Shown one piece after another: positions 2,716 through 47,278 of a stretch of 64,000 nt of DNA. A program made the position numbers and the translations under genes. Positions within the stretch are counted from its first letter, which is position 1. Every line of letters begins with the position of its first letter. The notes beneath the pieces are model-generated. The model did not search any database. It had not been told where the DNA came from and was given only the letters and a program-made list of their open reading frames with translations. The DNA is from Rhytidiadelphus loreus (taxonomy: Eukaryota; Streptophyta; Bryopsida; Hypnales; Hylocomiaceae). Location: contig OX344762.1 of NCBI GenBank assembly GCA_947034895.1, forward strand, positions 27,136,760 through 27,200,759, written 5' to 3'.

Positions 2716-5700
2716 TCAATTGATGACAGTGCCTTTACGCGTGAAGCTCGAAGATTTGGGCTTCAGACTGAGGCTACGACAAATGTTGTTGCAACGATGG
2801 GTTTCAAAGAAACTGTCCATTCCTGCATTGCTCCAGTTGGTCTTGGTCCTGGCATAGCAGTAGACATGCTTGCAATGAACTGCAGGATCACACAATATGA
2901 ACACTTTCTTCCCATCGGAGTCCTCCACCTGCACGCCTTGCAAGTCGGTCACCATGAGCAAACCATTGGAGCGTTGGTATGTCCAGTGAGAGAAGGCGTG
3001 CAGAGTGGCCGCGTAATCTTTGGTATTCACATAATTCACATTGTTGCTGTAACGAATCCATTTTCCTTCCAACCACTTTTCCATGTTGTAGTATGTTGAA
3101 TCTCCCACCTGGAGAACCGAAACCGCCGTGAACTGCACGGTCTTGTATTGAAGGAGTACCGATAATCTGTGTCAAAACGACGAGATAGAGCAATCGTTCA
3201 TAAACCAATGGACGTACTAGTTGTGACGGGATTATATATATTAGTCAATGTTGAATCCAGTATACAAAGATTCTGAAAAATCGAGATTTCTTGCATACTT
3301 TTTTTTCCCTTTTCAATGTTGTTTCATGGAACGAGAAGTGTTATGAATTCATTTACCCCAGTCAAGAAATGAATTTTTACCTCTCAAGTTCCTGGTTGAA
3401 ATGCTCGGCCATGAAAGCGGCGACTGTCTGCACCTCCATTTGCTCACGATACGCGTCTATTGTGTGCACATTGCGAGCATGCACTCCAACAAGCTCCTTG
3501 AATCTTTTCACCACCATTTTTCTGCAATGTTCCACTGTGTCAAGCACATTCAAAGTAACCTTCAAGCATGTCACAAGGGACCCAAGTTTAATCAGAAACA
3601 GATCATGCACGCTTTCAAAACTAGTTAAGGTATGCAAGCTATTTGGAAGCAGTCAATGCCATTACCGAGACTGTGATCATCTGGGGAATGAGCAAATCCC
3701 TAGTCTCAATGAACGCAAATTGTACAGAAAGTCAGAGCACGTGTTCAGAAGTTTTTACTTAAGATGGATTTGAATGCTTAATATCCTGCAATGTTCACTA
3801 CTTTGCTATGCTTCAAGACTCTCACTGCTGGCTAGGAGGTGTACGCACCTTGGTGGAGTGCATGCACCCTCGTGAACTTGTGCGTAATATGGCCACCTCA
3901 CGTTCCCTTCATCCGAGAAAGGTCTAAGCGCTATCTGTACGATTAAAGCAGGCTTTTGTTCCAACACCAACGATCTGTCTTTATCCACAATCCTGAACAA
4001 ATCTTCCAAAGTAGCCGGGAGCCTGCAGAACTCAGGAAATCGAACAATTTGAAAGTTCAGCTTCAGAGGTCATACATAAATTGGCACTGAAAAATGAATT
4101 GAGAGGGTCCATCAACTGTGTTCTTACTTGTAACTGAATTGCACTCCTTTTTTCCGCTTGATATTGTTCCATTGTGGTGTTTCATTCTTCCATGCCACCG
4201 GCAAATACCTGGGCACAGATGGACCTGCGGGGTTTCCATGAAATTCGCACCAAATTATGCAAGGGAGGAAATAGAGCTAGGCAGGTGAATACATACAAAA
4301 AAATCCCCTGTGCGATAACAGGGGAATCTACACAAATCCCTTGGAAGTGAAAAAGCAGGAATGTCTACAGTCTCACCTTCCCCTGAATATTGCAAATTCC
4401 TTGTATGGCCGCAACTGAAGAGGCTGATTTCAACACACTGGGGGATTCATGTGCAAATAACTTTCTTGCAATTCGTTTTATAAAATCTTTATTAAAATCG
4501 CAAAAGGTTTGCTCCATAGCATTAATTGTATTCCTGCAGAGTTATCAAAGGAAAAGCAAAAGCCCCTAACGTACTTAACTTGCGCATCTCATTTTGGCAT
4601 GCAATGGAATACTTGCCAATAGAATTGAAATTTTCTTTACCTGTACCAACTGCTCGAGTAGAGACCGCGATACTCCTGCAGGAAGCACTCACCACGACCT
4701 CCAGTAGGTCACTAATCTTGTCAAGCTTCTCCTCTTGGATCCATCCCCCTTGAGGAGTGCGCTCTCGGAACACGGTCAACATCTTCTTCGTGTTGTCGGT
4801 GATGTGACAAAACATGTAGTTCAGGATCTTGCAGTCATGGCGAAGAGCTGCCAGCAATTTGCTGATGTCCCGGCCCTTGGAGTCCCCGTTCGGGTAGTCA
4901 TCTCGCACTCCGTCGTGAAATTCCTTGCCGTGGCAAGGCATATCAGCGATGTGAATGAGGACTCGAGTTTTGGAGCTCCAGCTCAGAGTCGCGGCGCGCT
5001 CCAGCCCGGAGAACACGTCCTCGGGTGCGTCCCCACCCCCTGTTGCTTTCACTTTCGCTATTGCGGAGACGAATACGCTCTCGGGACCTGCGGAGATTTC
5101 CATCAAATTCAAGCCTACTTTCAGATAAAATGGACAAAATATGTAAAATTGCACCTGCCCTTGTCGTCAAAGGAAACCCCTCGAGTGCGTCTCAGTAGTG
5201 GAAATCGGGAAACTCCCCAAACTGTCGGTGAAGCCTGACCTTCAAAACTGTCGGTGAAGTCGCACTTCTGGGATTCGTCCTGATCGTACTCAGCGTAGTC
5301 TCGGTATGGCACAAACGCCACGCGTAGCTTTAATTTCGGAAACGCCTTCCTGACTTCAGTTGCAATTTCTGGAACCACATTCTTCACCTCAATTATCGAC
5401 CTCTGCACAGACAATTTATTTGTCTAGCACCATATATGAGAAACTTTCACTGGTTGAAACGTACCCAAAGATATTGAGTGAAAGGGGTTTGATGTCGTGC
5501 CAACTAGCTATTTGCATACTACTTTTTGAGGAAATGGAGGCATAATAAATGATTATATGGTGGGTTGTGTGTCAGTAGATTACCGACATGCTGCCCGTCG
5601 CGTCCACGAGGAAAGCCAGGTCGACCTGCTGCGCTTGCCGAATTCATTTCTTGAGCTCAAGGTTTCGAATCCTCTCGTCTCTTCTCTTGTCCATGAGAAG

Positions 5701-6138
5701 CTGCTGCTCACGATCGACGCAACGAACCGAGCCCTCGCACCATATTGTCGACATGGGATCCTCCCCGGAAACTCTCGACTCTTTCATTCTAAGATTCTCC
5801 AACCTCGCAAGCTGCTTCTCAAGTTCATCGTTGCGCCTCTGAAGCGCTAACGAAGCAGAGCTGGTTCCCAATGGTCGACTTGGCCCTGCCCTTGCGGTAC
5901 CTTCTGCCACGACCTTTTCCAGCTTCGCCAGCTTCTGCTCAAGCTCCTGGTTTCTCTTCTGGACAGCGAGAGAAGCAGAGCTCAAGCCAGCCGAAATCAC
6001 CGTCTTCGTCGTTCTCGGAGACTCTGCAATTCGGCAGCCGCGCGCAAATGACAATTCTGGCTCCGGCTCTTCTTCAATCCCGTGCTGAGGTTCCACCAAG
6101 TAAGAAGTCGACAGCCCTGATCTTCCTGTATGAGACAT
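2716..6138 (-). pseudogene. vWA / alpha-kinase gene, copy A, with a premature stop
   Basis: Seven exons (5584-6138, 5240-5402, 4641-5087, 4128-4224, 3849-4022, 3381-3521, 2716-3166, all complement) match the exons of copy B. Exons 2-7 have identical lengths and no frameshift. The encoded order is a coiled-coil N-terminus, a vWA domain (MIDAS-like DATGSM) and a C-terminal alpha-kinase domain ending ETHRCNNICRSL. The start chosen is ATG at 6138, matching copy B. Codon 165, at 5644-5646, is TGA where copy B has ATG, just before the vWA domain. As written only a 164-aa N-terminal fragment would be made. Because everything downstream is otherwise intact, a recent null allele, an assembly error, RNA editing or readthrough are all possible. 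Family knowledge: vWA/alpha-kinases of the Dictyostelium VwkA type are Ser/Thr kinases unrelated in sequence to classical protein kinases. Confidence 0.8.
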
Positions 6139-6590
6139 GACCCTTAATTGCGCAATAGCAATCACAGAAACTGACTGGAACTTTCCTTTCGGTCGATGAG
6201 CTACTACAAAATGCAATATACCAGTAGCAATCAAGCTGCATGTACCATGGATCAGCTAGATTGCACTGAACTAAGTGGGATTTCGCTCTCCTGCAGCAAT
6301 CCTAGCCTTGGACTTAATTTGTTTGCTGATGCGAACTAGCTAGCGATATTGTAACAGTTCGAACTCCAGCAAGCGTAAATTAATAAGCAAAGCATGCCAG
6401 GATATGTCTGTGAATCAGGCCGGAGAGATGGAGCTAGCTAGAGCGAGTGGGGGAATGGTATGGAACTTGTGCAGACAGGGAATCTGCTAAAGAAAGGCAG
6501 ATGATCTACACAAAATGCAGCTTGAAAAACAGACTGAAGCACTTGAGGATAAACGAACAGACTTGGAGTTTACACTTATACTCGTACGAG

Positions 6591-12412: not shown

Positions 12413-15400
12413 ATGTGTCAAACAGGGAGATCAGGGATGTCGACTTCTTGCTTGCTGAAACCTCAGCACCGGATTGAAGAAGAGCCGGAGCCAGAGCCAG
12501 AACTTGCAATTGAGCCTTGCTGCCAAATTGTAGAGTCTCCGAGAACAGCGAAGAATTTGCGTTCGGCTGGCTTGAGCTCTGCTTCTCTCGCTGACCTTGA
12601 GAGAGACCAGGAGCTGGAGCGGAGGCTGGCGAAGTTGGAAAAGGTCGTGGCAGAAGGTACCGCAAGGGCAGGACCAAATCGACCATTGGGAATCAGCTCT
12701 GCTTCGGTTGCACTTCAGAGGCGCAACGATGAACTTGAGAGGCAGCTTGCGAGGTTGGAGAATCTTAGAATGAAAGAGTACAGAGTTTCCGGGGAGGATC
12801 TCATGTCGATAATATGGAGCGAGGGCTCGGCTCGTTGCGTCGATCGTGAGCAGCAGCTTCTCATGGACAAGAGAAGAGACGAGAGGATTCGAAACCTTGA
12901 GCTCAGAAAAATGCTTCGGCAAGCGCAGGAGCTCGACCTGGCTTTCCTCGTGGACTCGACAGGCAGCATGTCGGTAATCTACTGCAGGAGACACCACCAT
13001 TTAATCATTTATAACGCCTCCAGTTCATCAAACACGAGCATGCATATAGCGAGTTTGCACGACATCAAACCCCTTTCATTCAATATATTTGGGTATGTTT
13101 CAACCAGTGAAAGTTTCTCATTACAGTGCTCGACAACTTAATTGGCTCTGCAGGGATCGATCGTTGAGGTAAAGAATCTGGTTCCAAAGATTGCAACTGA
13201 TGTCAAGAAGGCGTTTCCCAAACTGAAGTTGCGCGTGGCGTTTGTGCCATACCGAGATTACGCCGAGCACGATCAAGACGAAGCCGAGAAGTGCGATTTC
13301 ACCGACAGTTTCGAAGGTCAGGCTTCACCGACAGTTTTGGGAATTTTCCGATTGCCACTACTGAGAAGCACCCGGGGGTGGGGTGGGTGGGGAGGGGGGG
13401 CTTTGATGACAAGGGCAGGTGCAATTTTACCAATTTTGTCCATTTCATCTGAAACTAATCTTGAATTTTATGGAAATTTCCGCAGGTCCCGAGAGCGTAT
13501 TCGTCTCCGCAATAGCGAAAGTGAAAGCAACAGGGGGTGGGGACGCACCCGAGGACGTGTTCTCCGGGCTGGAGCGCGTCGCGACTCTAAACTGGAGCTC
13601 CAAAACTCGAGTTCTGATTCACATCGCTGATGCCCCTTGCCACGGCAAGGAATTTCACGACGGAGTTGGAGATCATTACCCGGACGGGGACTCCAAGGGC
13701 CGGGACATCAGCAAATTGCTGGCAGCTCTTCGCCATGACTGCCAGATCCTGAACTACCTCTTTTGTCACATCACCGACTCCACGAAGAAGATGTTGAAGG
13801 TGTTCCGAGAGCGCGCTCCTCAAGGGGGATGGATCCAAGAGGAGAAGCTTGGCAACATGAGTAACCTGCTGGAGGTCGTGGTGAGTGCTTCTTGCAAGAG
13901 TATCGCGGTGTCTACTCGAGTAGTTGGTGAAGGTAAAGAAAATTTCAATTCTATTGGCAAGCATTCATTTGCGTGCCAAAATGAGATGCGCAAGTACATC
14001 AGGGGCTAGAGCTTTTCCCTTGATAAATATGATGGAATATAAATGCTATGGAGCAAACCTTTGCGATTTTAATAGAGATTTGATAAAACGAATTGCAAGG
14101 AAGTTATTCGGTCATGAATCCTTCAGTGTGTTAAAATCAGACTTTTCAGTCTCGGCCATACAATTCCGAATTTTAATATCCCCCAATTCATCAGGGGAAT
14201 GTGAGACTGTAGACATTCCTGCTTTTTCACTTCCAAGGGATTTGTATAGATTCCCCTGTTATCGTACAAGGGATTTTATTTGCATGTATTCACCTGCCTA
14301 GCTCTATTTCCTCCCTTGCATAATTTGGTGCGAATTTCATGGAAACCCCGCAGGACCATCTGTGCCCAGGTATTTGCCGGTGGCATGGAAGAATGAAATA
14401 CCACAGTGGAACAATATCAAGAGGCAAAATGGAGTGCAATTCGGTTACAAGTAAGAACACAAGTTGATGGACCCTTGAGCAATTCATTTTGCAGTGCCAA
14501 TTTATATGTGGCCTCTGAAGCTAAACTTTCAAATTGTTTGATTTCCCTGAGTTTTACAGGCTCCCGGCTACTTTGGAAGATTTGTTCAAGATTGTGGATA
14601 AAAACAGATCGTTGGTGTTGGAGCAAAAGCCTGCTTTAACCGTACATATTGCGCTTAGACCTTTCTCGGATGAAGGGAACGTGAGGTGGCCATATTACGC
14701 ACAAGTACACGAGGGTGCATGCACTCCACCAAGGTGCGTACACCTCCTAGCCAGCAGTGGGAGTCTTGAAGCATAGCAAAGTTGTGAACATTGCAGGATG
14801 TTAAGCATTCAAATCCATCTTAAGTAAAATCTTCTGAACACGTTCTCTGACTTTCTGTACAATTTGCGTTCATTGAGAATAGGGATTTGCTCATTCCTGA
14901 GATGATCACGGTCTTGGTAATGGCATTCCCAGCTTCCAAATAGCTTGCATACCTTAACTAGTTTTGAAAGCGTGCATGATCTGACTCCTGATTAATCTTG
15001 GGTCCCTTTTGGCATGTTTGAAGGTTACTTTGAATGTGCTTGACACAGTGGAACATTGCAGAAAGATGGTAGTGAAAAGATTCAAGGAGCTTATTGGAGA
15101 GGATGTCAGCAAGGTGCACACCATGGAGGCATATCGTGAGCAAATGGAGGTGCAGACAGTCGCAGGGTTCATGGCAGAGCACTTCAACCAGGAACTTCAG
15201 AGGTAAAAATTCGTCTTTTGGCTGGGGTAAATTAATAACACTTCTCGTGCCATGAAACAACATTTCAAGTGAAAACAAAACATGTAGGAAATCTTTCACT
15301 TTCAGAATCTTTGTTATATATTGAATTTAACATTGACTATAATATAGAATCCCATCGCATCTAGTACATCCACTGGTTTTTGAATGATCGTTCTATCTTG

Positions 15401-27502: not shown

Positions 27503-28891
27503 GTAAGTTATTTCATTTTCGCCAGGTGCGTGTCTCCGGCCGTGTCAATTGCACGGCCTCTAATTCCTCGCCATGGAAGCTGTCGATCGTCTCGTTTGGA
27601 ATCCGGCTATGGATGGATCGTTCTGTTCGGTTTTTGTTATCAGGATTTTTTGATATTAGGATTTTTCGGTATGAGGATTTTATGCTATGAAGTCCGTCGC
27701 CGTTGTCTGGTGTCATTCGTTGCTGGAGACTCACCTCGTATAGGACTACCATGTTTGGAGCTTTTGTGTTCTGTTTGTTATTGATGTCGTGGCGTGCTTC
27801 TTCGAGGTGCGATTGTGCCCTGTCATTTTCTGATCTTTCACCACAATTTTTCATTTTTGCGAATTTTGAAATTTTATTGAATTTCTGTGAATTTCTGAGG
27901 GGGACCTAGGCCTTGACTGTTAATTTTGTTTGTTTTATTTTAATTTTTAACTTTATTGGTGCTGTGTACCTTTGGTGCGCACATACCTCTGTGCTTGCTA
28001 CCTCAGTTTAACCTTTGGATCTTCTAAGTAGCTGTGATTCGTCGATGTCTGCCGGATACTGGTCTAGGTATTTAGATCAGTTGTTATTGTTACGACAATA
28101 GGTGGATCTTCGATTTGTTACGCTGTTTGTGAATTTTGTTCCTGTTCTACGAAGCTGTAGAATCTAGGTGTAATTTGTGGCCTTCGGATGACTTGCTCTT
28201 GCGCTCATCGCATAGGGTTTGGGAATTGTGTGCAATTGAGTTACTTCGGGGTTTCGTTCATTGAGCCCTAATTATGAGATAGAGTGGCTGGATTGTCACT
28301 ATAGAGCAATGCGCCATGGCCAGAGAAATGGCTTGGATTTTTAGCTTTGTTTTGGCAAGTCGACGGCGAGCACTATTTTGGATCCGCCCTTGTCTTCACA
28401 CTAAGAGTTACTAAGACGTTGAGTTTTTAAGTATGGAGGAAGAAACATTTTGGCAGTAGGAGAAGCTTCCGAAGACCAGCAATGAAGGTTCAGATACTGT
28501 CCAATTATGGAATTGAAGTACTTGTATGTGCAAACTGTCTCTTGTTAGTATGACCGGCCCGGAAATCCTTCGCTTGCTGTTGAGACTTCATACTGATTTG
28601 ACGATACGAGGCAGCTCTGAAAATGCTTGGCAGAAACTGGATACACATTAGCAAGTCAAGCCCAGTTCGTGGGATGTTTGCATTATTGAATTTCACATGC
28701 TGGAGTTGTGAAATGCGATGTATGAGCTTTGGTTTTCGAAACTCGCGGGCTCAAACTTATTTCTGTCGTTGTGGTGATCGCATGTGGTGGAATGGGTCAG
28801 CCTTTAGACGATCTCATAGAATTCGATCCTGTTTTAACCCTTCCAGCGGTATATTATGGAAGAAGAGTATTGACCGAAGGGGATTTATCAG
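27503..28891 (+). other. Probable 5'-leader intron of phosphoglycerate mutase
   Basis: A pyrimidine-rich leader (about 27270-27500) is followed by a good donor (cca|gtaagtt at 27503). A good acceptor (tttatcag) lies 10 bases before the start codon at 28902. The ~1.4-kb span has T-rich intron composition and no conserved frame. Long leader introns are common in highly expressed plant genes. Transcript boundaries are inferred. Confidence 0.5.
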
Positions 28892-28901
28892 GTGTATCAA
28901 A

Positions 28902-31900
28902 ATGGCGGAAGGAGCAGATAGATTCAAGCTCGCTCCACATCCCAAGCTGCCCAAGGGCAAGAAGCTCATGCTGATTATCCTGGATGGTTGGGGCGAACAG
29001 ATCCCAGATGAGTTTAATGCCATTCACTGTGCAGAAACGCCAATTATGGATTACTTGAAAACGGTAACGTTCATTTTCTTTTTCCGCTTACTGATCTGGT
29101 GACTAGAACTAAACCGTCTCCCTAGACGAGTCCTATTTATTTTTCAGGCAAAGTTTGATCTCTTCCTCCTAGATCAGATTTTGAATCGAGTAGGTATTCT
29201 TATGTGTAATGGCCTTTCTAGAGTCTTATCTCAGCATGTGACGACGTAATCTTTCTCGTGTCTCGTGAAACATTTTTTTCCTAAAAGCTGCTAATTTATG
29301 ATGCATGTGCAGACTGCTCCTGAGAAGTGGAGGCTGCTCAAGGCCCACGGGGCTGCGGTGGGTCTTCCTACTGAGGAGGACATGGGCAACAGTGAGGTTG
29401 GCCACAATGCTCTTGGTGCTGGACGCATTTTCAAGCAAGGGTATGTCTTACTTGTCTAGTTTGAGTGAGAGCCCATTGATTTCTTATCAATTGTAGTTTG
29501 AGTCCTCGCTTTTAGGTTTTTGACCTTGTCGTGCAGCATGAAATGAATACGGTCGGGAGAAACATACTATTCATTTAGACAATGGTTTCAGATGCGCTTA
29601 CTTTTCCAGATCTAACGTATGAAGTTGCCAGTAGAGAAAGCTCTGTACTTAACTTGCTCTTATTTCGGTCTGCATGGAGCTTTCGAATCACTGGGACCGA
29701 GTTGTTAAGATGTTGCATCTAGAAGACTAATGTCCTGCGAAGTATTCTGTAAATAAGGATTGCCACTATGGTTGTTGAATCGAAGAGGTCTGTTCGTTCA
29801 ACGGAATCAGCTGCAGCTTGGTGTTCATGTGAAAGTTGATCTGTGCAGGGCAAGTCTTGTTGACACCGCACTGGAGACTGGTTCGATTTTTGAGGGCCCC
29901 GGTTTTAAATACGTGAAAGAAGTGCTGCCTAATGGCACCCTTCACTTGATAGGTCTCCTAAGTGATGGTGGAGTACATTCTCGTTTTGACCAACTCCAGG
30001 TTTGTGCAATCACGCTCGATAGTTTGATCGTACCCCATGATTCTGACTGATCGTGACAATAGAGTCATGCCAAATGGTGGTATTGGAAGCAATAAGGACA
30101 CAGTGGAAACTTCTCGATGGGGTGGGAAATATCGATTTTCACCTTAAGCATCTGCATTAATTGACTTACTTGGCTACAGATTTCATATGATAACGGTGTT
30201 TTCAGAACTTTCAGTTGACACAGGGCTGGGTTGTTTCTTCCTGCAGCTTCTTGTGAAAGGGTCTGCTAAGCGGGGATTTAAAAGAATTCGAGTACACGTC
30301 TTGACGGATGGTCGAGATGTTGCAGACGGCTCAAGTCTCAAATTTGTCCAGATGCTCGAAGACACATTAAAAGAAGTGCGTGAGGAAGGCTGCGATGCAT
30401 TGATTGCTTCGGGTGGTGGTCGGATGAAGGTTACTATGGATCGATATGAGGTATCTGAAGGAGATCTGGAACTTGAGCTTGTCCGTTGTGCCACGAGAAT
30501 ACATTTGACATTTAAGAATATAACGTTATCTATCCTTAAGTCAGAGTTTGGTATTTTCGTGATATCGCTGATTCAAAATTTGAACTTTGAACTAGGTGAT
30601 TTTTTCCTCACCCCTGGAGAAATCAAATCCTCATCATTCTGGGCTCTCATTTTTTACTTAAGAACTTATGTGTCTTCTGCAGAATGACTGGAATGTTGTG
30701 AAGAATGGTTGGGATGCTCAAGTTCTTGGAGAAGCGCCCCACCGCTTCACCAGCTGTCTTGAAGCTTTAAAGAAACTCAAGGAGGAGGACCCCAGCCTGA
30801 ATGATCAGTACTATCCCCCTTTTGTTATAGTTGATGGATCCGGTAAGCCTGTCGGACCCATTTTAGATGGGGATGCTGTCGTCACCTTCAACTTTCGAGC
30901 AGATCGCATGGTCATGCTTGCCAAGGCGCTTGAACACGAGGACTTCGATAAATTTGATCGAGTACGAATACCTAAAATCAAATACGCTGGTATGCTATTA
31001 TACGATGCCGATCTCAAGCTCCCGACCCATTACCTGGTGTCCCCGCCAGAGTTTACGGAAACTTCGGGTGAATACCTGGTCCACAACGAAGTCAAGTCAT
31101 GGGTGTGCAGGTGAGAGCCTGAGTCTGGTACTGCTCTTTGGTTTAGTGTCTTGCTACTCACAGCATTAATCGCGCGTTCTGAAGGGTGTAGCTTGCGAAA
31201 ATTATAAGTTGAGCCGCGATGAATTATGCTGCATTGAACTGCTCAATAGACTGAGCTTCCATCTTAAAGTAGTCTTTGTAATGGCCTTGGTTGGTGGCAT
31301 ATTTCGGATTGTCCTCTTTTGACCGATATGTTGTTTGCTTTGCAGCGAAACAGTGAAATTTGGTCATGTAACATTCGTTTGGAATGGAAATCGTTCTGGC
31401 CAGTTCAGCAAGACCCTTGAAAAGTATGTGGAAATTCCGAGCGATCAAGGTATCAGCTTCGATAAGAAACCAGAAATGAAGGCCATTGCCATAGCTTTAA
31501 AAGCTGCTGAAGCTCTTCGCAGTGGGGAATGGGACCAGGTACTTCTCCTCCCTCGTTCCGCCGTATTTGTGTCTAATGTCACTCATTTCTTTGAATCAAC
31601 GATTCTTGTTTTCTTTAATAACTTTCATTCAATACTAATAGGTGTCGATATTTGAAGCATTTTTTGCTAAAATTATCATGTGATAACTCTTCTCCATCGA
31701 TTCCTAATGTTGTACATAGTTTCATCTCAAATTTCGTAGTGCCTGATTCGTATGAGCAACATGATTGACGTGGTGGACGCTGTGTTACAGGTTCGAGTGA
31801 ACATTGCGAACGGTGATATGGTGGGTCACACAGGAAATCTTGAGGCTACCATTGTTGGCTGCACTACTACTGATAAGGCTATTAAGGTAACCCCTCCTCT

Positions 31901-33647: not shown

Positions 33648-34567
33648 TCATGCTTGCTCAATGCTTTTGATCAATTCATCTTTGTTGCTTGGCATGGTCT
33701 CCTTTTGTACAAAGTCTTTTAGAATCATCCATATATTCTCTATGGGATTCAAGTCCGGTGAGTTTGCAAGCCATGTAATCATTCTAATTTTATGAGCTTC
33801 TCGCCATTGTTTGGATAAGTTACTACGATGCACAAGGGTGCCATCCTCCATGAGGAAAAGACTTTGAAGATCATCATGCATATAGAAAAAGCCACTCAAT
33901 CGACCTTCGTATACAACGTCAACAAAATCAACACTTGTCCGCTTATCGGATGGCATAACAACAATGGAGCACTTGTCATAACCTATGAAAGCACCCCAAA
34001 TCATGATGGATGTGCGGCCAGATTTGAAAATGGGTACCAAGCAATCCCACAAATAACGTTCATATGGTCGTCGCCAAACCTTCACTTGTTGTGAATTTTT
34101 GCCTATCTCAAATGAAGCCTCATCTTTTATATTATATTCATCCATTTTGAAACTTTCCAAGCCTAATATTTTTGGGCAAATGCCAATCTATCGGCCTTGA
34201 ACTTGTCATTAAGAAATGGCTTCTTCGTTGCAACGCGATGACGAAATCCTATACGTTTAATCTCCTTCCGTAATGTGCACACACAAACTTCCTGGCTCAT
34301 CTTTTCTATAATGGAGACAAGTGGAATGCGTCTATTTTGTATAAGAATACGTCCTAATTCCCTTCTACCTCAATCGGTTAGTTTGCAATGTCACCATACA
34401 ACCTTATGAGTGACCATTGTTCCATAATTGTTGAATTTCTTCAATACATATTCAACAGTGGAACGTGGCATGCCTAACTTTGTTGCAATGCTACGTTGTG
34501 ACATCCCTGAACAACTCATGCCGACTATGATACCTTTTTCCTTTGTGCTCAAATGACGACTTACCAT
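33648..34567 (-). pseudogene. Tc1-like DD34E transposase, broken
   Basis: From ATG at 34567 a helix-turn-helix domain is read (LSTKEKGIIVGMSCSGMSQR ... TKLGMPRSTV), as in Tc1/pogo-type DNA-binding regions. In-frame TGA codons lie at 34391-34393 and 34370-34372. Linker sequence follows in the same frame, and a frame change near 34165-34175 leads into the catalytic domain (33648-34160). That domain shows KVWRRPYERY, MIWGAFIG, the second aspartate in LMEDGTLVHRS, and LANSPDLNPIENIW with the terminal glutamate. Thirty-four residues separate that Asp and Glu, so it is DD34E like Tc1, not the DD39D of typical plant mariner-like elements. It is inactive as written. Confidence 0.8.
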
Positions 34568-37071: not shown

Positions 37072-37100
37072 CATTAGAAGAAAATTCGGGTCTCCAGATG
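37072..37100 (+). repeat. Left terminal inverted repeat of the large element
   Basis: Begins CATTAGAAGAAAATTCGG and ends gatg. The first GTTGGCAAC motif follows six bases later. Confidence 0.88.
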
Positions 37101-37604
37101 CCTAAGTTGGCAACGCAATTTTCGTGCTTGGAAATTGCTGAAAATGCCACCTTGCACGTTGCCAACGTGGAGTATAAGGTGATGACGAGGGATTTAGCAC
37201 CCGTTGCTACCAATGGGAGTGACGCGTTGGAAACAATATTTTATTGGCGTACCGTTGTCCCCTGTCCTGTGTGTAGGGTTATAAAACGAATTTCCAATTG
37301 GGCGTACCAAACGCAGGGACTAGTCCCGCATGCGGACCGGTAGTGGAGCCGCGCATCGTTGTCAATGATGCGATGTGTTTGACAACTTGGAGGGAATTTC
37401 AAACTTGGCACGGAATTGGCTGAGCTCCAATTTCAGAATGGGTCCAAACGCGTCACTCGTTCAATGTCACAGTTCCATGCATTGTAGTTCCATGAATTGT
37501 GTGGATGCCAGTGTTGTCGAGTGCTGCCCAAATTGTGTGATCACTGGCAACTCGTTTCCAACAAGTGTTAGGTGATCAATTGTGCGTTGGCAACGTCATC
37601 AAGA

Positions 37605-39103
37605 ATGGAGAATCGCAGACCGCGTTCGGAGGTGGCAGCAGTGACGCTCCACAACACACACAATGACCAGGGAGAGTGGATTCCAACGAGATACGAGAGG
37701 TTGTCGTGGGTGAGGTTGAACCCTGGTAGAAATGGAACTTGGGCTCGAGAGGCTCGTCGGCATGGAGGTGAGAGCATGAGGGGATCTTACAAGGCTCAAA
37801 TCATGGACTTCCGGTTCAAGTTTGATGGGCGCAAGACCGTTTCCAACAAGCCGGAATTGGAGTCCGTGTTGGTTAGACATGCTTACCACCGGCATCAAGT
37901 GCTCTTAGATCCAGAGATTCGCCACGATCGGGTTCCATGCAATTGTGAGAATAGATGGCGCTTTGTTTCCACCTTTGATGCCATGTTGTTCTTGAAAGTT
38001 TGATGGCCATCAAAGTAAACGTGGCTGGGGCTTTACACTGCTTTGCTAATTTGGTTTGTGGTATTGTCTGTTGGAAACAGTTCTGTACCAATCCTTTTTT
38101 GAAGACTGGGTGGACCCACTTTCTATCCTTGGAGTCATCGTTGTTGTGCACAGCGAAATTGGTGAAGCCACTCGGAATGGGAGGTCCTACAATGAGCTTC
38201 TGGAGAATGGGATATTTTTTTCTAACCTTGTCTATGTGCCACCTACACCAGGGCTTCTATATGGATCAGTTGAGCCACTGTCGTTGCCACCTTTCACTGA
38301 TCCCGAATGGCCTCTCCCCGACATGCACACCAGTGAAGCGTTTCGGTTCAAGCTTCGGGCCGATTTCCAAGCTGTCACCAAGGCCACCACTGGAAGCCGC
38401 ATGGGCCACCTCCAGTGGTTTATGCCCTTGCATGTATTTGTAGATCTTTTTGCGTGTGAGGAGGAGAGGATGAGACGCACTGCCGTCCTGTACGTTGTCA
38501 ACAGCCCCTCCGACGAGTTGTTCACGAGCCTCATGGACGCAGGTTGGCATCAGAAAGTAGTCTTCGGCAAGGACATTGTCAGGTGCACAATCTCAATGGA
38601 CACTGTAGCCTTCAGGTAAGGAGACTTTTGTTGCCAACAGACTGTTGCATGTGCCATTGAGAGTGTTTTAGGGTGTAGGGTGCTTGTGAATTGTTGCGAA
38701 CGTTGAAAACAACCTTTCTTAGACGTGTCGGGTGTGCTGTAGATACCATGTTGGGCGAGCAACGTTGTACACAAATTTCAAGTACGGCCGAGAGCGTCTG
38801 GCGCCAGATGGTGTTAGTTGGCAACAGATAGACGAAGTGCAGGAGGAGGACATGGTGGTCCTCCCATGTTTGTTTGAAGGTGTGACGGTGGCAAGGTTCC
38901 AGGTGGGTCGAACATGGCCGTTGGCACACATTCGCAGAGAGGTGGATATCACCTTGGGAGGTGTGGTTCCAGAAGACTTCCGCTTCTCTGTCCGTCAGCA
39001 AGGGTTTGCAGACATCCTTGTAAACCGGAGGCAGGAGGGTGCCAACAGGGTAGCAGATGTCCTTCCTCCGTGGACGTTGGAGATAGTGGCAATTACCAAC
39101 TAA
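37605..39103 (+). CDS. Element gene 1: protein of unknown function (411 aa)
   Basis: I do not recognise this protein. Best exon model: 37605-37944 (donor gtgaga), 38081-38615 and 38743-39103; phases agree and no stop interrupts. The second and third exons are well supported by composition; the first junction is less certain. The N-terminal part is basic (MENRRPRSE, GSYKAQIMDFRFKFDGRK). The middle contains FFEDWVDPLSILG, PLSLPPFTDPEWPLPDMH and HLQWFMPLHVFVDLFACEEE. The C-terminal ~120 residues (YTNFKYGRERLAPDG, GRTWPLAHIRREVDITLGG) look like a compact globular domain. There is no signal peptide or membrane segment. It is transcribed away from the left end and converges with element gene 2. It may be an accessory transposition protein, a sequence-specific DNA-binding or anti-silencing factor, or cargo; none of these is shown by the sequence. 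Confidence 0.65.
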
Positions 39104-39329
39104 GTGGTAGAGCATGGTTAGTTTAGAGAACTATCAATGTCAGTTTTGAGACATTTTAGCACTTACATTCCTACAGGTGCCTCTTTCAACGTCACGTTGG
39201 AAACAAGTCGGTTTAGGATGATATAGAGTTAGATAAGGACTTATGTGTAAGCAACAACCGTCATAGGAAACACTGTAAGGCTGAATTTTGATAATCAAAA
39301 AAAAAATTGGACGTTGATAGTTACCTTCG

Positions 39330-39476
39330 TGTTTGGGACGTGTTTCAGACTTGGTTGCCACTCGGTTCATGATGAGAAATGACTGTGTTGGAAACAAAAG
39401 AACTCCTCATGTTTGGGACGTGTTTCAGACTTGGTTGCCACTCGGTTTATGGTGTTTGTGACTGTGTTGGAAACAA
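39330..39476 (+). repeat. Tandem ~78-bp duplication inside the element
   Basis: The unit gtttgggacgtgtttcagac ... gttgccactcggtt occurs at about 39335 and 39411, each followed by gactgtgttggaaacaa. Each copy carries one GTTGGAAAC. A shorter relative (gtttgggacgttacatt) occurs at 42480. Confidence 0.75.
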
Positions 39477-39975
39477 GAGGAGTTCCATTACATCACGGTG
39501 ATTGTACATTTGACAAAATGAGGCAACAACTTCACAATGACTGCGTTGGAAACAAGATGACTCTCATTTCCTCTAACTCTATCATGACTCGTGACTTCCT
39601 GTTCCAACAATGCTTTCTTTTGTACACGTCCATCTAAGTCATATGGCGTGTGTAAACAAGGGCAAATCACAGAAGGGAACTGCATTCATACAAAACATGT
39701 TGACAACAGAGATGGGTACCGAAAACTTGCGAGAGAGTTGAAGAACTAATGAATGCAAAATCACAATGAAAATATGCGGAAATGCAGAATTTTCATATTC
39801 GTGAAAGGCAGGTGAACAAAAATGATGGAAAGAAGTTTCTGCTTCCTATGACTGTCCTCAAAAACCCATCAGTGCCATTTCAAGTGTAGGCCTGCTAAAC
39901 ATCCACTGTTTCCAATGTCTACTACTACCTACACTAGCTTGATGTACAGAAGGCGCTTCTAAACACGACAAAAAA

Positions 39976-42194
39976 TCAAATTTGGTCTACAAGCGCATCC
40001 AAAACTTCTGCATCCGCCGAATCTATGGATGACGAACCCGCTGCCTGAGGCCTGCCAGCAGATCCACCCTCAGATGAAAGATCGACGTGCACTGGTGCGG
40101 CAGGCGGGCCCACTGCGGGAGGTTCACGCGACGTTGCCAACTCCGCCTCCGCCCCATCTGTCGGTGCCAACGGGGTCGCGTTGGCAGCAGCCCCCGAATC
40201 TGAAGGCATGGGAGCTTTGCTTTTGTTGTTGTCCTCGAGCGGCAAAGGTGGTCTTCTTTCGGGCTTCGTCTCCCCTCTGCTTGCAGCTACTGCTTCATTT
40301 GCTGTTGGAAACAGAGCACATCCCACATGAATATTACCACAACATTGTAAAGAAAAGACAGAATTCCAACAATACAAAAGAGAAGAGCAAAGGTTTGAAC
40401 TACAGATGTTGTGTTATAAATTTGAGTGACAATTACCAACTAAGTGCATATAGTACATTACGCTACCAGAAACGTACTGTGAAAGGCTAAGTCTCGCACG
40501 GCTGCGTCAACCGCTTCTGTATAAGGAGATCCTTTTCGCCTGAATGCAAAACAAGGAAGTGCCCAAACGTATTCTCTAGGAGCAACAGGAGAGAGCACTG
40601 AATGCTGGGCCTTACCAGCCAAGGGTGATGCACCTAGCGGTGTCTTTAACAACTTCGGAGCTATTTCACCTTCAGGGATCACAGAGGCTTCCCTCTTCCG
40701 AATGCTGACACCATAAGAAGCCCCCTTACGCGGAACCTCATTCTCGCCAACACAAGTCGGGATCTGTGTTTCCAACGCGTCAAAGCCCCATGCTTCCAGC
40801 CACTGACGGTCACCTCCTTTCTTGCACCTTGGACACACCCGACTCCCCGAAAGAAGTTCAGACCACAAACACCATGGGTGAAACAGGCAACCACATGAGA
40901 AGGGCACAGCACCGTTGGAAACAAACAGTTGAGAGCACAAGCCGCAGGGTGAATCCACTTCAAGAACTGGCTTGACACCCGTTTCCAACGCCTTGTCGTC
41001 AGCCAACTTCTTCGGCTTGATGGAATACTGGCTTGCTCTCTCTGTTGCCAACTGCTTCTGGAGATCCCCCAGTCCTTCCTCGCTCAACCTGAAGGCTTCC
41101 TCCAGTTCCTTAAGGCATTTGGACTTCTCAAGGACCGAATCTTGAACTTCCTCCAACTTGTCGTTGTTGGCAGTGATGTCCTTGCACACCTCCCGCTGCT
41201 CCTTGTCCACCGTTGCCTTGTCATACAGGTTCCCTGCTGCCGCAAGCTCTCTACTCCGCCTCCGCAAGCAATCCTTCACAGAGTTGAGGCGTTCGTCTTC
41301 TGCTTCCAACGTGAAGATTGTGCCTTCCAGTCCCTTTAAGGTACCTCGCAATCGGGAAATGCACTTGGATTTGCCCTTGACGTCTTCCGACTTCTCTTTC
41401 ACCTGCTTCTCCAGCGCGGCCACCTTGTTCCCAACATTGTCAACGCCGTCAGTGTTGCCAACGGCCTCAACTTCTCGCTGCTCCTGCTCCTCGCGCCCAA
41501 CTTCGCTTCCAGCGGGCCGAAGTCCAACTTCCTTCTGGAAATACAGCCGGAACTCCTTCAGAATGGACCACATCTGCTCCCTCAATGCTGGAGGGCCCAA
41601 TTTCAGGGGATTCAGGCCCGGATGAGCGAGTCGTTCTTCAGTCAATTGGGCCGCAGCCGCTGCCCAATTCACCTTGTTCCTGCGCCCCTCCTTGTAGAAG
41701 TACACACACGCGCGCAAGAATGTTTGGCTGAAGGCTTTGTTGTCAGGTGCATCGCCATAAACCCTCATGTACATCCGAAGGTATAGATCCCGCGAATTGA
41801 GGTCTCTGCACTTGTCCAAGCAGTACCGTGTCCTGTTCAACCCCTCGCCAGGAACCCAGATGGACTCGTACATGTAGGAGGGAACCATAGCCTCCGTCAC
41901 CTCTTTGGGCATGATCCCTTCTTTGCACAATCCGTAAACCCTGTGGAAGAACTCTGCGTCATACACCGCCTTGTGCCTCCCCAACAAGCACGGTGCCAAC
42001 GTCACCAGCCTCTTCTGCAACGCTGGTGGAAGCCCGCTTAAATCCGCTGGAACCTCCCACGTTCCCCATCCCGGATCGGTGGGGAGAAGCACTTGGTGCT
42101 TCTGGGGAGGAGCAGACTCTGCCAACACTGCCGCCATGAGAGCTTTGCCTTTGACAAGGCTTTTCGAACGAGCTTTCCTGCTTGACGCGCTCAT
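39976..42194 (-). CDS. Element gene 2: coiled-coil RING-type protein (680 aa)
   Basis: Two exons (40478-42194 and 39976-40301, complement) join in phase through a gtacgt donor, totalling 681 codons. The start is ATG at 42194 (MSASSRKARSKSL), just after a pyrimidine-rich tract ending ttgcag. An upstream in-frame extension to 42362 is open but looks like leader. Domains: a basic N-terminus, an unrecognised globular region (about 35-230) including YMYESIWVPGEGLNRTRYC, a long coiled coil (about 235-395), and a RING-like zinc finger (about 414-460) with CGLC, CGCLFHPWC and CPRC. The C-terminal exon is Pro/Ala/Ser-rich and acidic. RING domains usually confer E3 ubiquitin-ligase activity or mediate protein binding. 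Vertebrate RAG1 carries its own RING; here a RING is encoded separately beside a RAG1-like transposase. Function in transposition is inferred only from context. Confidence 0.75.
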
Positions 42195-42285
42195 GGTGAG
42201 ACCTACAATTGACCTGCTGCAAAGACAACAGGAGAGAAGAAGTGCAATTGGAATGTGTAACCAACAGCGCGAAACTCGCACAAGA

Positions 42286-42299
42286 GAGAGAGAGAGAGC
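42286..42299. repeat. (AG)n microsatellite
   Basis: A pure AG run in the 5' leader of element gene 2; on the transcribed strand it is a CT tract just upstream of the likely leader acceptor. Confidence 0.7.
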
Positions 42300-42694
42300 A
42301 ATGGCAACGTAGAAGTACTTTGAAGTTTCACTTGTGCCTGAGGCTGGGGGTTTATGGGGCAAGTGCCTTGCTTATGACGCCAGTAACTCCCAACGTGCTC
42401 CATGATGGCACAGCCGCCTCCTGTTGCCAACGAGCCAATGAGCTTAATGATTAGATGTCGCTTTAGGCCCTAATTGAGTGTTTGGGACGTTACATTATGG
42501 TCAGTATCTTATGATTCCCTCATCCACTGATGGCAACTTGTTTCCATCATGGCCTAATTTTGTGGAGTGGGCACATCACCTCATAGTGTCTCCTGTTGGC
42601 ACATCATGGACCCCAGCAAGAGAAGCTGGTACTTCTCTAGGAACCCAGTCATTTTATTTTATAAGCACGGTGCCAACAGGAGATCACAAATTTC

Positions 42695-42755
42695 TAGGGT
42701 CGTGGGTTTAGGGGTTAGAATCTTGGTTTAGGGTTTTCGGTTTAGGGTCCCTCTT
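42695..42755. promoter_or_regulatory. Telo-box-like TTTAGGG cluster
   Basis: Within 60 bases are gggtttaggggttag, ggtttagggttttc and ggtttagggtccc, i.e. the plant telomere word TTTAGGG in an interstitial cluster about 500 bases upstream of element gene 2. Single related words occur near 45270 (accctaaacc) and 46687 (cctaaacc, beside the start codon of gene 3). Telo-boxes are known plant promoter elements; this role is inferred. Confidence 0.4.
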
Positions 42756-43137
42756 AAGCATTAAAATTGCCTAGGTCTGTGGGATCAAAATGGGTACATT
42801 TGACAATTTGTTGGCAACAAGATTTGGGCAGTACAAACTTTACATTTCTGATGTGGAAATTTTTCCGCTTGCTATGAAAATTGGTGGTTTATAGTGATTT
42901 TATCCGAAAAAGTGAATGATACCTAAAAAAACTTGCAGAATCCTTCCATGAGTGGATATTGTAGTAAAAAAACACTATGGTGTAAATTCAAAGGCTTGTT
43001 TCTAACTTCTACACATGGAAGCGCCACTAAGTACATTGGTATGTGGCCTCGTTAAATAAACCTCAGCCACCGTCGTTGCCAACGGCCTAAACTCTGTTGC
43101 TATGGAAATGGTGCCGCTGTTTGCTACACCCTCCATT

Positions 43138-46100
43138 TCAAGACGTCGCCACCCAAGCACGGCCTACTCGTGATCTACCTTCCCTCCAGATTCTAGCTGC
43201 ATCCATTGCATTTGACGTGTTGTAGGCCGTCCTCTTTCTTGTTGTCGCTGCCGTTCTTTGGGCATCATCTTCCATCGATGTCGCGTTGGCAACGTCCTTC
43301 AGTCGTTCCTGCTTGGCAAACCTGTGTTGTATGTTTCTGTACCAATGTTGGTATTGCTGAACAATGGAGCTTGTTCTCTCTTTAGTGCCTCCATGTTGAG
43401 TGTGATGCTGATTAGCAGCCTTAGCTGCGTGATGAGATTTTTCCATGCCCTGGTTGTTCCAAACAGCGAGACTTCCATACGTTTCCACATACCAAGGACC
43501 ATGGCGCACCAGATTATGCTAGCAAATCACAGCATTCAAGGAATTAGTAGAAGTACGTGTAAAAATGTTGCACTGCGTGAAACGAGATGCCATGAAATGT
43601 GTCAAGTTCACATACCATCACACCCTGGACCCCCTAAGCTTGTCAAATGAACTTCCCACATGACGGCAAACATTGACTTTGAACTGCAGATGTACGTTGG
43701 CAATAGACGGTACTCACCATATAATGAGTCACATGGTCTTCCCCGAAGCATTTCAAGTAGAGGCTCCCCCATCTCTCAATTTTACCTTTGAAAGTCTCCC
43801 TTTGCTCTTGATCCAAGGAAAGGCCAACCAAATAAGGGAACACTGTTTCCAACGCCTGCCACATTTCCACCCTGTCTAGATATTGCCTCCCTTGTTGAAG
43901 AGTGTTATTTTCTGAGCGCAAGACATCCTTCCATACTCGATCTTGCCCTGACCAAGTCGATGGTTGGAACATCCTAGTTGCAGTCACACCACTGAGGGAG
44001 GGTTTGATGGGGACACTGTTGGAAGCGCCACTGAGTACTGGGTCCTTCATGATGCGGACGTTTCCACCGTGAAGACCAGCTGCTGACAGAGTCTTCTCCA
44101 TATTCTCTATGGCTTGTTGCTGACGCTCCTCATTCTTCATGTTCCAAATGAACATGAAATGGAGGTGAAGAATTTTCTCCATCATTCGAGTTAACGCATG
44201 TAAGGTACAAATATGTACCCTCTCAAGTGGAATGGGTAGAATAGGCTTCCACCGTGATTCTCTGTCAGTGGCGAGCGGTTTACATTGCACGTTGCCAGCA
44301 AATAAACCTCCATGCCATGTATGTTTTCTCCGCCTAGCCTCTGTAGCAGCAGACGCGGCTGTTCCCAGCACTGGTTTTGTCCGCTGTTGGTTACAGTAAA
44401 TGCATGAGTGTATCGCGTTGGCTCCATGCTTCAGCCCATACAAACACTTAATTGTCTTCATGTCAGCTGACAAATGCCACTCTACTTTGAAGTCTCCAAC
44501 ACCCTCAACTCTTAACAGTTGACCCTCATCTTGCGCTTTGATGAGTGTAGGGAACTGAGTTTGTTGGAACACCCAGTGGAGAACTTCATACGACTCCTTG
44601 GCCACCTCAAAGCATGCGATAGGCCAGATTTCGGTTTCCGATTGGACTGAAAAATATCTATCATCTGTTTTTTGTATGCTGGTGTCTAATGCACGATTCA
44701 TGAGCGTCAAACTCACCCTTTCGAATTTTCTCCCATGTACAATCTCTGCTTCGTCCATCTTCAAGACGAAAATTAAAGGCTTGTTTCCAACTTCTGGACA
44801 TGCAGGTTCAGTTTCCAACGTCAGAGCACCCTACACCGCTTGATGTACAGAAGTCAATAAGAAATCACATTGGAAACAAGTACCGTTTGAACAGGAATGT
44901 TTTGAAAAGAAGGATATTCACCTTCGGTCGTGAATTGGTATAGCTTCACCATAGTCCTCTGCACCACTTCGATGTCAACAAACAAAGAATTCTTGGGCGT
45001 TAGAACCACCCTTGATATGTCTGATTTCTTCTTTCTTCCTTTTCCAGTGGTAACTGAAGGTTGCACCACCAACTCCAGCGTACTGTCAATATGGTAATAG
45101 TTGCCAACAAGATCCGTCAACTTTGAATTGAGTTCTGTTCGCAACAAACTGACCTGTTCAACATAGTCCATATTGTGAGAACACCACGTAAGCCTAAACC
45201 CACCACTAACATGCCGTTGGAAACAAGATTTTCCTTATTGAAGTTATGTAAATCGCCCAGAACCCTGAACCCTAAACCAGGTTTTGCGACTGCAAACACG
45301 TTACCACCCTCCCTCTAGCAGCGTTTATGGGGCCCCTGCTATAATTCTGTTTTCCAATGCTCCGATCGACTAGGCTAATGCAAGAACCCTCCAGTATGTC
45401 CTATATTGAAATTTTCCATCGTTTCCAACAAGGCATAGCAATACGCTCTACTTTGAATGTAAGCCCAACTCGTTTCCAACAATGCATAGCCAAAATTCAT
45501 GGAATGGGAATAATAACTTCAAACCTTGTGCGGGTTTGGCAAGAATGTTGGCTTCAAGCGTTTGTCAACGAGCTGCACTCGCCCTTTGATCGTCTTGTAG
45601 ATCTCACCATATCCTTTCTGTGACACTCCAGTCATATCGCACGCTGCTAGTATTGCTTCTGTTCCCAACTCCGTCCCAATTTTCTCAAGGTAGTGGTTCG
45701 TCATGCTGGTTGCAGCATGACTATGTTGCGAACTTGATATCAACGCCAGCGTCTCTCCCTTTGACATCAATAGTCCAATCGCCTGCCCGGTCTCATCTTG
45801 GGTATCCTTGTCGCCACACAGACGTTTCCTTCTGTTAGACGTCCTGTTGCCAGCGTGTATAGCTTGAACTACCTGCGGTTGCAACAAACTTCGAATTTTG
45901 GCTATACGAGCCCTCGACGCGCCACCACTCTTCGCTAATTCAACGAGGCCCTTCGATGGTCTTAGTTGTGGTCCTGCTGGAGTCCTGACCATTCTTTCCA
46001 TTTTCCTTTGGAATTTCACTATGGACTTTCTTGCTTCCATGAGTTCATGCTCCAACTGCAAGACCTTCTGATGCGCACCTTGTCGTCCTTGTTCGTTCGC

Positions 46101-46685
46101 CAACTGCAAGTTGTTGTTGTGTTGGTCCTCATTCCTGTGCAACTCTTCTTCGACTGCTACACATCGAGCCCTAAAGAAGTCTAAACCGCTCTTCAAAGTG
46201 TCAATCTCCTCTTTACTTCTTGCAACAAGTTCCTCTGAACGTTGTGCCCAGCTACTGTTGGCAACGTCCAGATCCTGCGTTAGTAACGCAATGGAATTTT
46301 GCAAGGCTTCCCTCTTCCGAATTGCATCAGCTTGTGTCTCCTGTAATTGCCTTTCCAAGCCTTTTATTGAATCACAGGTGCTAACAAGGTTTCTAGAATA
46401 TCCTAGGAGTCCAGAGTCACCGTGACACACAAATTCTAAGCAACTCTTGATTGTTTGAAACGGTGGTGGCTTCCCTGTGACAGGATCTGTTGGGTACAAA
46501 TTGCCATCCAACCATAAATCAATGTTGGTGGCTCCAGAATCTCTCAACGCTGGAAACTCTGCTTTTGAGGCTTGCTGATCAATTCGAACCCCTTTCCTCA
46601 CAATAGGGGCGAATTTACTATCCAATATAACAGCTGCTGTATACGAACTACCCTTTCCAACATTGGTAATGTCCTGAAGTGCCAT
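43138..46685 (-). CDS. Element gene 3: RAG1/Transib-like DDE transposase (974 aa)
   Basis: Four exons (45525-46685, 44884-45153, 43718-44830, 43138-43518, complement) are each a multiple of three and join without a stop, giving 975 codons. The start is ATG at 46685 (MALQDITNVG). Residues about 100-235 form a coiled coil. The catalytic region starts near 480. Acidic and zinc residues are D503 (FVLKMDEAEIV), D600 (WHLSADMKTIK), C620/C623 (SCIYCNQQR), H849/H854 (HNLVRH) and E874 (NQGMEKSHH). In mouse RAG1 the corresponding residues are D600, D708, C727/C730, H937/H942 and E962. The Asp-to-Cys distance is 20 here and 19 in RAG1; the last His-to-Glu distance is 20 in both; GL at +9/+10 after the second Asp and GS-x-x-x-W before the Glu are shared. 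These enzymes cut DNA by a hairpin mechanism and move elements by cut and paste. It is presumably nuclear and acts on the TIRs of this element. Confidence 0.8.
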
Positions 46686-47249
46686 CCTAAACCGAAATCT
46701 CTCAAATCGTGTGCCAAAGCCACCCCAAAACCAGTTGAGGGATGCCAATGAGCCTGTTGGCAACGGCAATGAGGCCAGCTCATTTGGCGGGAAGCAATTC
46801 CAACAATTGAGAACTTGCGAGCATCTCCACGTTGACATTCCCCACATCCCCCAATTCACACGCTCGTCAACTGGATTGTACATGTTGAGTACACTAATTG
46901 GAAATAGTGGCTTCCAAATCAGAATTCCAAATCGTGGATTAAAAGATTATAATCCACAATTTGGTACTCGCAGTCAACATTAAAATAGTCACCGAACTAT
47001 ATTAATCTATGTGCCAAACTCATTGCCCCAAGTGTTGAGTTGCCAACATGGCAAATGTTTGTACAGAGTCCTGGTGCACGGCTGTTGACAACAAGGCGCC
47101 ACTTGAGTGCTTCAGTGACAACTCGACCTGTACCGTCCACAGCTCATTGGCGTGCAGGTTTGATGGCAACAAGCGCCAAGTACCCATGATGTTGGAATTG
47201 ACCATTTTCTAAAAAGCAAAAAATTATTTTTCAAGCCCAAAGTACCGGC

Positions 47250-47278
47250 CATCCAGAGACCCGAATTTTCTTCTAATG
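47250..47278 (-). repeat. Right terminal inverted repeat of the large element
   Basis: Read on the minus strand it begins CATTAGAAGAAAATTCGG and matches the left TIR at 27 of 29 positions. The adjoining 200 bases contain further TTGCCAAC / TGGCAACAA variants. Confidence 0.88.

Follow-up and report, generated by a model that had tools for sequence, protein, structure and literature searches.

A probably autonomous CMCT-clade transposon with a predicted RAG1-fold transposase in the moss Rhytidiadelphus loreus

A stretch of 64,000 nucleotides from the moss Rhytidiadelphus loreus (assembly GCA_947034895.1, contig OX344762.1, positions 27,136,760 to 27,200,759 of the forward strand; termed the window below, and the frame for all coordinates) contains a DNA transposon of the CMCT clade. 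This clade holds CACTA, Chapaev, Transib/RAG1 and Lanisha. The element possibly belongs to Lanisha and is probably autonomous. Taken as a whole, the evidence makes it very likely that this is an apparently intact cut-and-paste transposon whose transposase is a DDE enzyme with the RAG1 fold. CMCT families are marked by C(2)C and H(3–4)H motifs, CA..TG termini in most cases, and target site duplications (TSDs) of 2–5 bp (PMC12730594).

Extent and termini of the element

The preliminary description of this DNA had reported a transposase gene between 43138 and 46685. The gene is present, but it is part of a bigger feature: the whole element spans 37072–47278 (10,207 bp, no strand assigned) and contains the transposase gene (gene A), a second gene (gene B) and a putative third (gene C). 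It is bounded by terminal inverted repeats (TIRs) of 29 nt with 93% identity. The left repeat (37072–37100, plus strand) reads CATTAGAAGAAAATTCGGGTCTC, 23 bp of perfect match, and then CAGATG; at the right repeat (47250–47278, minus strand) the element closes with ...CTTCTAATG-3'. Read at full length, the TIR places CATTAG at the start and CTAATG at the end, and thus CA..TG termini. TA was tried as a certain TSD and dropped, because the inverted repeat continues outward through CAT..ATG.

The longest stop-to-stop open reading frames (ORFs) inside the element encode 637 and 475 amino acids, against 245 in the remainder of the window; the element therefore looks young. A tandem repeat of about 79 bp (39327–39573, plus strand) includes three unit pieces, each with one GTTGGAAAC. 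A search of viral_contigs gave seven pattern matches and no relatives, with no match to the TIR, and Rfam and tRNA scans gave no matches.

Gene A and its homologues

Two homologue searches, each scoring about 8000 candidates, yielded 59 and 57 proteins (39 of the latter new), that is, 98 in all; the 59 proteins of the first search are 31 to 86% identical to the query. Only P0088 and P0095 carry an organism name, in both cases the fern Adiantum nelumboides. In both, pieces of the transposase core appear fused with sequence of other origin, for which the Pfam listing gives PF25070 and PF03492; to judge from this arrangement they are either chimaeric gene models or gene captures.

Gene A lies on the minus strand and has four exons. 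Exon 1 (45525–46685) contains the start codon, a conserved N-terminal segment that aligns to P0044, P0045 and P0048, and a coiled-coil-like stretch. Exon 2 (44922–45153) is continuous with exon 3 in the homologue P0007. Exon 3 (43718–44793) encodes the RNase-H core, with D478, D575, the CxxC at 595/598 and an RVHICTLHA motif, and P0001–P0003 are 84–86% identical to it. Exon 4 (43138–43518) supplies H824/H829 and the proposed catalytic E849 (GSLAVWNNQGMEKSH); when it was compared with P0044 and P0045 alone, it matched full-length P0045 with E=5e-24.

A 974-residue protein from four exons had been proposed previously. The strand, the span from 46685 to 43138 and the in-phase GT–AG exons stand, but the exon 2/3 junction and the length do not. 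Enumerated GT–AG sites permit many in-phase models near 974 residues; P0007 aligns unbroken across the junction, which indicates a donor at 44922 and an acceptor at 44793, and the model is corrected accordingly to 949 residues, with introns of 371, 128 and 199 bp. All the residues named earlier are retained under new numbers (D478, D575, C595/C598, H824/H829 and E849).

The last intron can be located in the homologues as well. T-x-Y-M is reached by 58 of the 98, and V follows in 56 of these 58, which is what a read-through GT donor would give. The exceptions, P0044 and P0045, continue directly into exon-4-like sequence and may be transcript assemblies. The position of this intron is conserved.

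Conservation of the catalytic residues was assessed in an alignment (A3) of 72 rows, comprising 71 of the 98 homologues and exon 3 of the window. Among rows with a letter in the respective column, the first Asp is found in 61 of 63, the second in all 71, and the Cys of the CxxC pair in 69 and 68 of 71. The pattern around the second Asp recurs in 80 of the 98 homologues, with a CxxC starting 18–25 residues later in 73 of the 80; of 74 distances measured from the second Asp to Cys, 71 come to exactly 20. Across this set, the Asp/CxxC pattern is more than chance.

Particular resemblances to mouse RAG1, whose sequence was checked against the PDB, hold to differing extents. After the second Asp, the window has GL at +9/+10 and CxxC at +20/+23, and mouse RAG1 has G717 at +9 and CxxC at +19/+22, but GL occurs in 45 of the 80 homologues with the second-Asp pattern. 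The HxxxxH-to-Glu spacing is 20 in both the window and mouse RAG1, but 19 in P0044 and P0045. Among the homologues compared, neither GL nor the exact spacing of 20 is family-wide. The GS-x3-W-x5-E context around the Glu in the window agrees with that in mouse RAG1, as had been noted.

Predicted fold of the transposase

The proposal of a RAG1-fold DDE transposase is supported by structure prediction. An AlphaFold2 model of P0044 matches RAG1, BbRAGL (ProtoRAG) and HzTransib well above other folds; the predicted fold is shared over about 410 aligned residues, a span that runs from the DNA-binding/dimerisation part as far as the Glu. Both Asp lie on the expected RNase-H elements and in confident regions. 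The Glu (E779 in P0044) falls just beyond the end of most structural alignments, and gapless extension brings it to about RAG1 962–964; confidence around it is low. A fold search of BFVD gave no matches at E<=1e-3.

Several observations weigh against this interpretation. The modelled protein is P0044, which is 41% identical to exon 3 of the window, and not the window's own protein. E779 lies within residues 774–813, where the predicted local distance difference test (pLDDT) score is under 50, and this low value at the Glu slightly lowers confidence in the interpretation. Foldseek TM-scores are modest (0.37–0.49 by target length), with root-mean-square deviations of 8–18 Å. In A3 just two homologues reach the Glu column, most records ending close to the intron; both have Glu, and the same two have HxxxxH. 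A profile comparison with mouse RAG1 by hhalign is not significant (E=0.38, probability 0.2%), and phmmer and hmmsearch against the PDB likewise found no significant sequence similarity to the RAG1 or Transib core (best E 0.94 in the sequence search, no matches in the profile search). The element is known from one copy, without an empty site. Its flanks, GAAG and GAAT, agree at three of four positions, with TA/TA as the alternative, so that a clear TSD is not seen.

Pfam scans of the pieces of genes A, B and C, of 20 members (25 families listed) and of 10 homologues gave weak, mostly coiled-coil matches below curated cut-offs, with no transposase among the matches listed; for the 10 homologues this covers the full Pfam lists down to an E value of 10. 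NCBIfam scans of four homologues gave nothing relevant.

Genes B and C

Gene B is on the minus strand. Its long exon (40458–42196) encodes a conserved N-terminal domain, a coiled coil and a RING-like Cys/His finger (CGLC...CGCLFHPWC...CPRC); a possible 3' exon (39976–40320, minus strand), identified as an ORF, would add a low-complexity tail. The RING-like finger of the element sits on the protein of gene B, separate from the transposase. Four homologues are 38–45% identical, covering 99–100% of the query in three cases and 57% in one, and in their alignment (A4) the finger is present in all three that are long enough to reach it. By these alignments gene B is a conserved companion of gene A. 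Its structural model is weak (mean pLDDT 56, predicted template modelling score 0.29).

Gene C (37606–39103, plus strand) is a putative three-exon gene of unassigned family, built from ORFs with inferred splicing; its three pieces have no Pfam match. It is a candidate reader of the motif described next.

The GTTGGMAAC array

The nine-base motif GTTGGMAAC occurs in 34 exact copies between 37106 and 47047, in both orientations (no strand assigned to the array) and at a mean spacing of 301 bp. The element holds all copies in the window, where 1.46 are expected (sd 1.37) and 100 shuffles gave at most 5; the surrounding 53.8 kb has none. In 500 order-1 Markov copies of the element the mean is 0.35 and the maximum 4. 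The two forms of the motif (18 and 16 copies) are the commonest 9-mers in the element; in seven other, partly overlapping stretches of 10.2 kb, the top 9-mers are poly-A (20) and otherwise reach at most 11. Coding sequence, putative coding stretches included, accounts for 15 copies (2.4 per kb); the other 19 (4.8 per kb) lie outside it. Introns 1 and 2 of gene A are densest, with three copies and one, respectively; intron 3 has none.

Most simply, the 34 sites would be binding sites of a protein encoded by the element, namely the product of gene B or C or the N-terminus of the gene A protein. That the array instead arose incidentally, through tandem duplication or codon bias, appears unlikely. 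Three copies do fall in the 79-bp tandem repeat, and four of the five in the coding sequence of gene A share one reading frame; against this, the motif is found in both orientations, in all three genes, in two introns and in spacers, with none in the surrounding DNA, and the flanks of the copies look unrelated, save for those in the tandem repeat and an adjoining pyrimidine/purine preference.

The nearest parallel is offered by VANC and the VANDAL elements of Arabidopsis, which are Mutator-like elements (MULEs). There, too, a nine-base motif is concentrated within the element and scarce beyond it, but the arrays are mainly non-coding and in the same orientation (PMC5735166). GTTGGMAAC differs in being present in both orientations and in exons, and VANDALs belong to a different superfamily. 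A bolder idea, offered tentatively and with the odds against it, is that a plant transposon lineage with a RAG1-fold transposase has its own genome-marking system, in which an element-encoded reader of GTTGGMAAC, a motif kept up at intervals of about 300 bp in exons, introns and spacers alike, coats the element against silencing or for transposition assembly. Such a system would parallel VANC by convergence, in an altogether different superfamily.

Placement within the CMCT clade

Within the CMCT assignment, the H and Glu part of the signature is drawn from the window and two homologues. The preliminary description had held that no RAG1-like transposase was described in land plants, a statement that loses force in view of Lanisha, which Repbase Reports proposed in 2020 as a lineage of CMCT. 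No RAG1-like plant transposase was recognised among the literature matches listed, a weak negative that covers abstract openings, with most subscription papers and Repbase Reports outside its scope. The authors of Lanisha (Maumus, McDaniel and Carey) are reportedly from the genome project of the moss Ceratodon purpureus, and Lanisha may come from the same plant group as the window element.

The chances are about even that the element is a member of Lanisha, and hence of an already named kind. Lanisha is counted among the CMCT lineages, sharing their C(2)C and H(3–4)H motifs and mostly CA..TG ends (PMC12730594), and the window element has CATTAG..CTAATG; this comparison covers the described motifs and termini. 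The fungal ESTA elements resemble the window element in their CMCT motifs, and HHpred similarity of their transposase to RAG1 is reported; their TA TSD would agree with one possible reading of the flanks here. Some ESTA carry a TET/JBP gene (PMC12730594), which did not appear when the pieces of the window element were scanned with Pfam.

The earlier contrast, 'RAG1/Transib, not CACTA', is not supported. The catalytic signature is common to CMCT families including EnSpm/CACTA (PMC12730594), no CACTA structure is among the PDB matches, and the profile comparison with RAG1 is not significant. An either/or choice between the RAG1 fold and CACTA is therefore too sharp, even though RAG1 and Transposase_21 fall into different clusters by other methods (PMC3985635). 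The absence of a TNP2-type match has been borne out: Transposase_21 is found in none of the 10 homologues (E up to 10) and is absent among the 25 families listed for the 20 members.

An aberrant plant CACTA/EnSpm element of the TNP2 type is improbable. En/Spm is likewise a plant CMCT element in which a transposase (TNPD/TNP2), a second protein (TNPA) and many short TNPA sites occur together, and it has the same catalytic signature; apart from the missing TNP2 profile match, however, the window element ends in CATTA, not CACTA, and its motifs extend over the whole element, coding exons included, and not just near the ends.

Least probable, and quite unlikely, is a true Transib/RAG-family element nearer to RAG1 than to CACTA: RAG1, BbRAGL and HzTransib are the best structural matches, the D, D, CxxC, HxxxxH, E residues and the spacing around the Glu are shared, and the GS-x3-W-x5-E context agrees with mouse RAG1, but the listed matches included no structure from CACTA, Chapaev or Lanisha that could compete with these, there is no significant sequence link, the N-terminus with its coiled coil is different, the TIR has no Transib end of the CACAGTG type, and the companion is a RING-like coiled-coil protein, with no RAG2-like kelch match in Pfam scans of the element pieces.

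Proposed mechanism

If the element is a cut-and-paste CMCT transposon, the gene A protein would bind the 23–29 bp inverted repeats and pair both ends. DDE cleavage would occur at the 5'-CATTAG ends, with D478, D575 and E849 coordinating the metal ions, and a zinc site formed by C595/C598 and H824/H829 would brace the catalytic centre as in RAG1. RAG and Transib cleave through flank hairpins, and cleavage here may do the same. Insertion would then produce a short target duplication. The element-encoded protein bound to GTTGGMAAC may meanwhile coat the element for transposition or protect it from silencing.

Other features of the window

Outside the element, an ORF with an alpha-kinase domain (2716–6255, minus strand; E 2.5e-33) has a weak von Willebrand A match close by, and another such match is found about 7 kb away (13410–14009, plus strand), both below the Pfam cut-off; these matches are unusual for plant DNA. 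Pieces of a BPG-independent phosphoglycerate mutase (28602–31114, plus strand; Metalloenzyme and iPGM_N matches) are probably exons of a host gene. A DDE_3 (Tc1/mariner-like) transposase fragment is located at 33648–34187 (minus strand).

Significance

The usual account of the origin of RAG1 stays within animals and starts from Transib. Here a plant family has the predicted RAG1 fold not just in the RNase-H core but well beyond it, as well as a similar context around the Glu. This suggests that the parental clade may be wide, and such a family would link RAG1 structurally to the plant CMC elements. The motif array, for its part, would be a case of an element writing a recognition code into the coding sequence that it carries, and one that can be tested.
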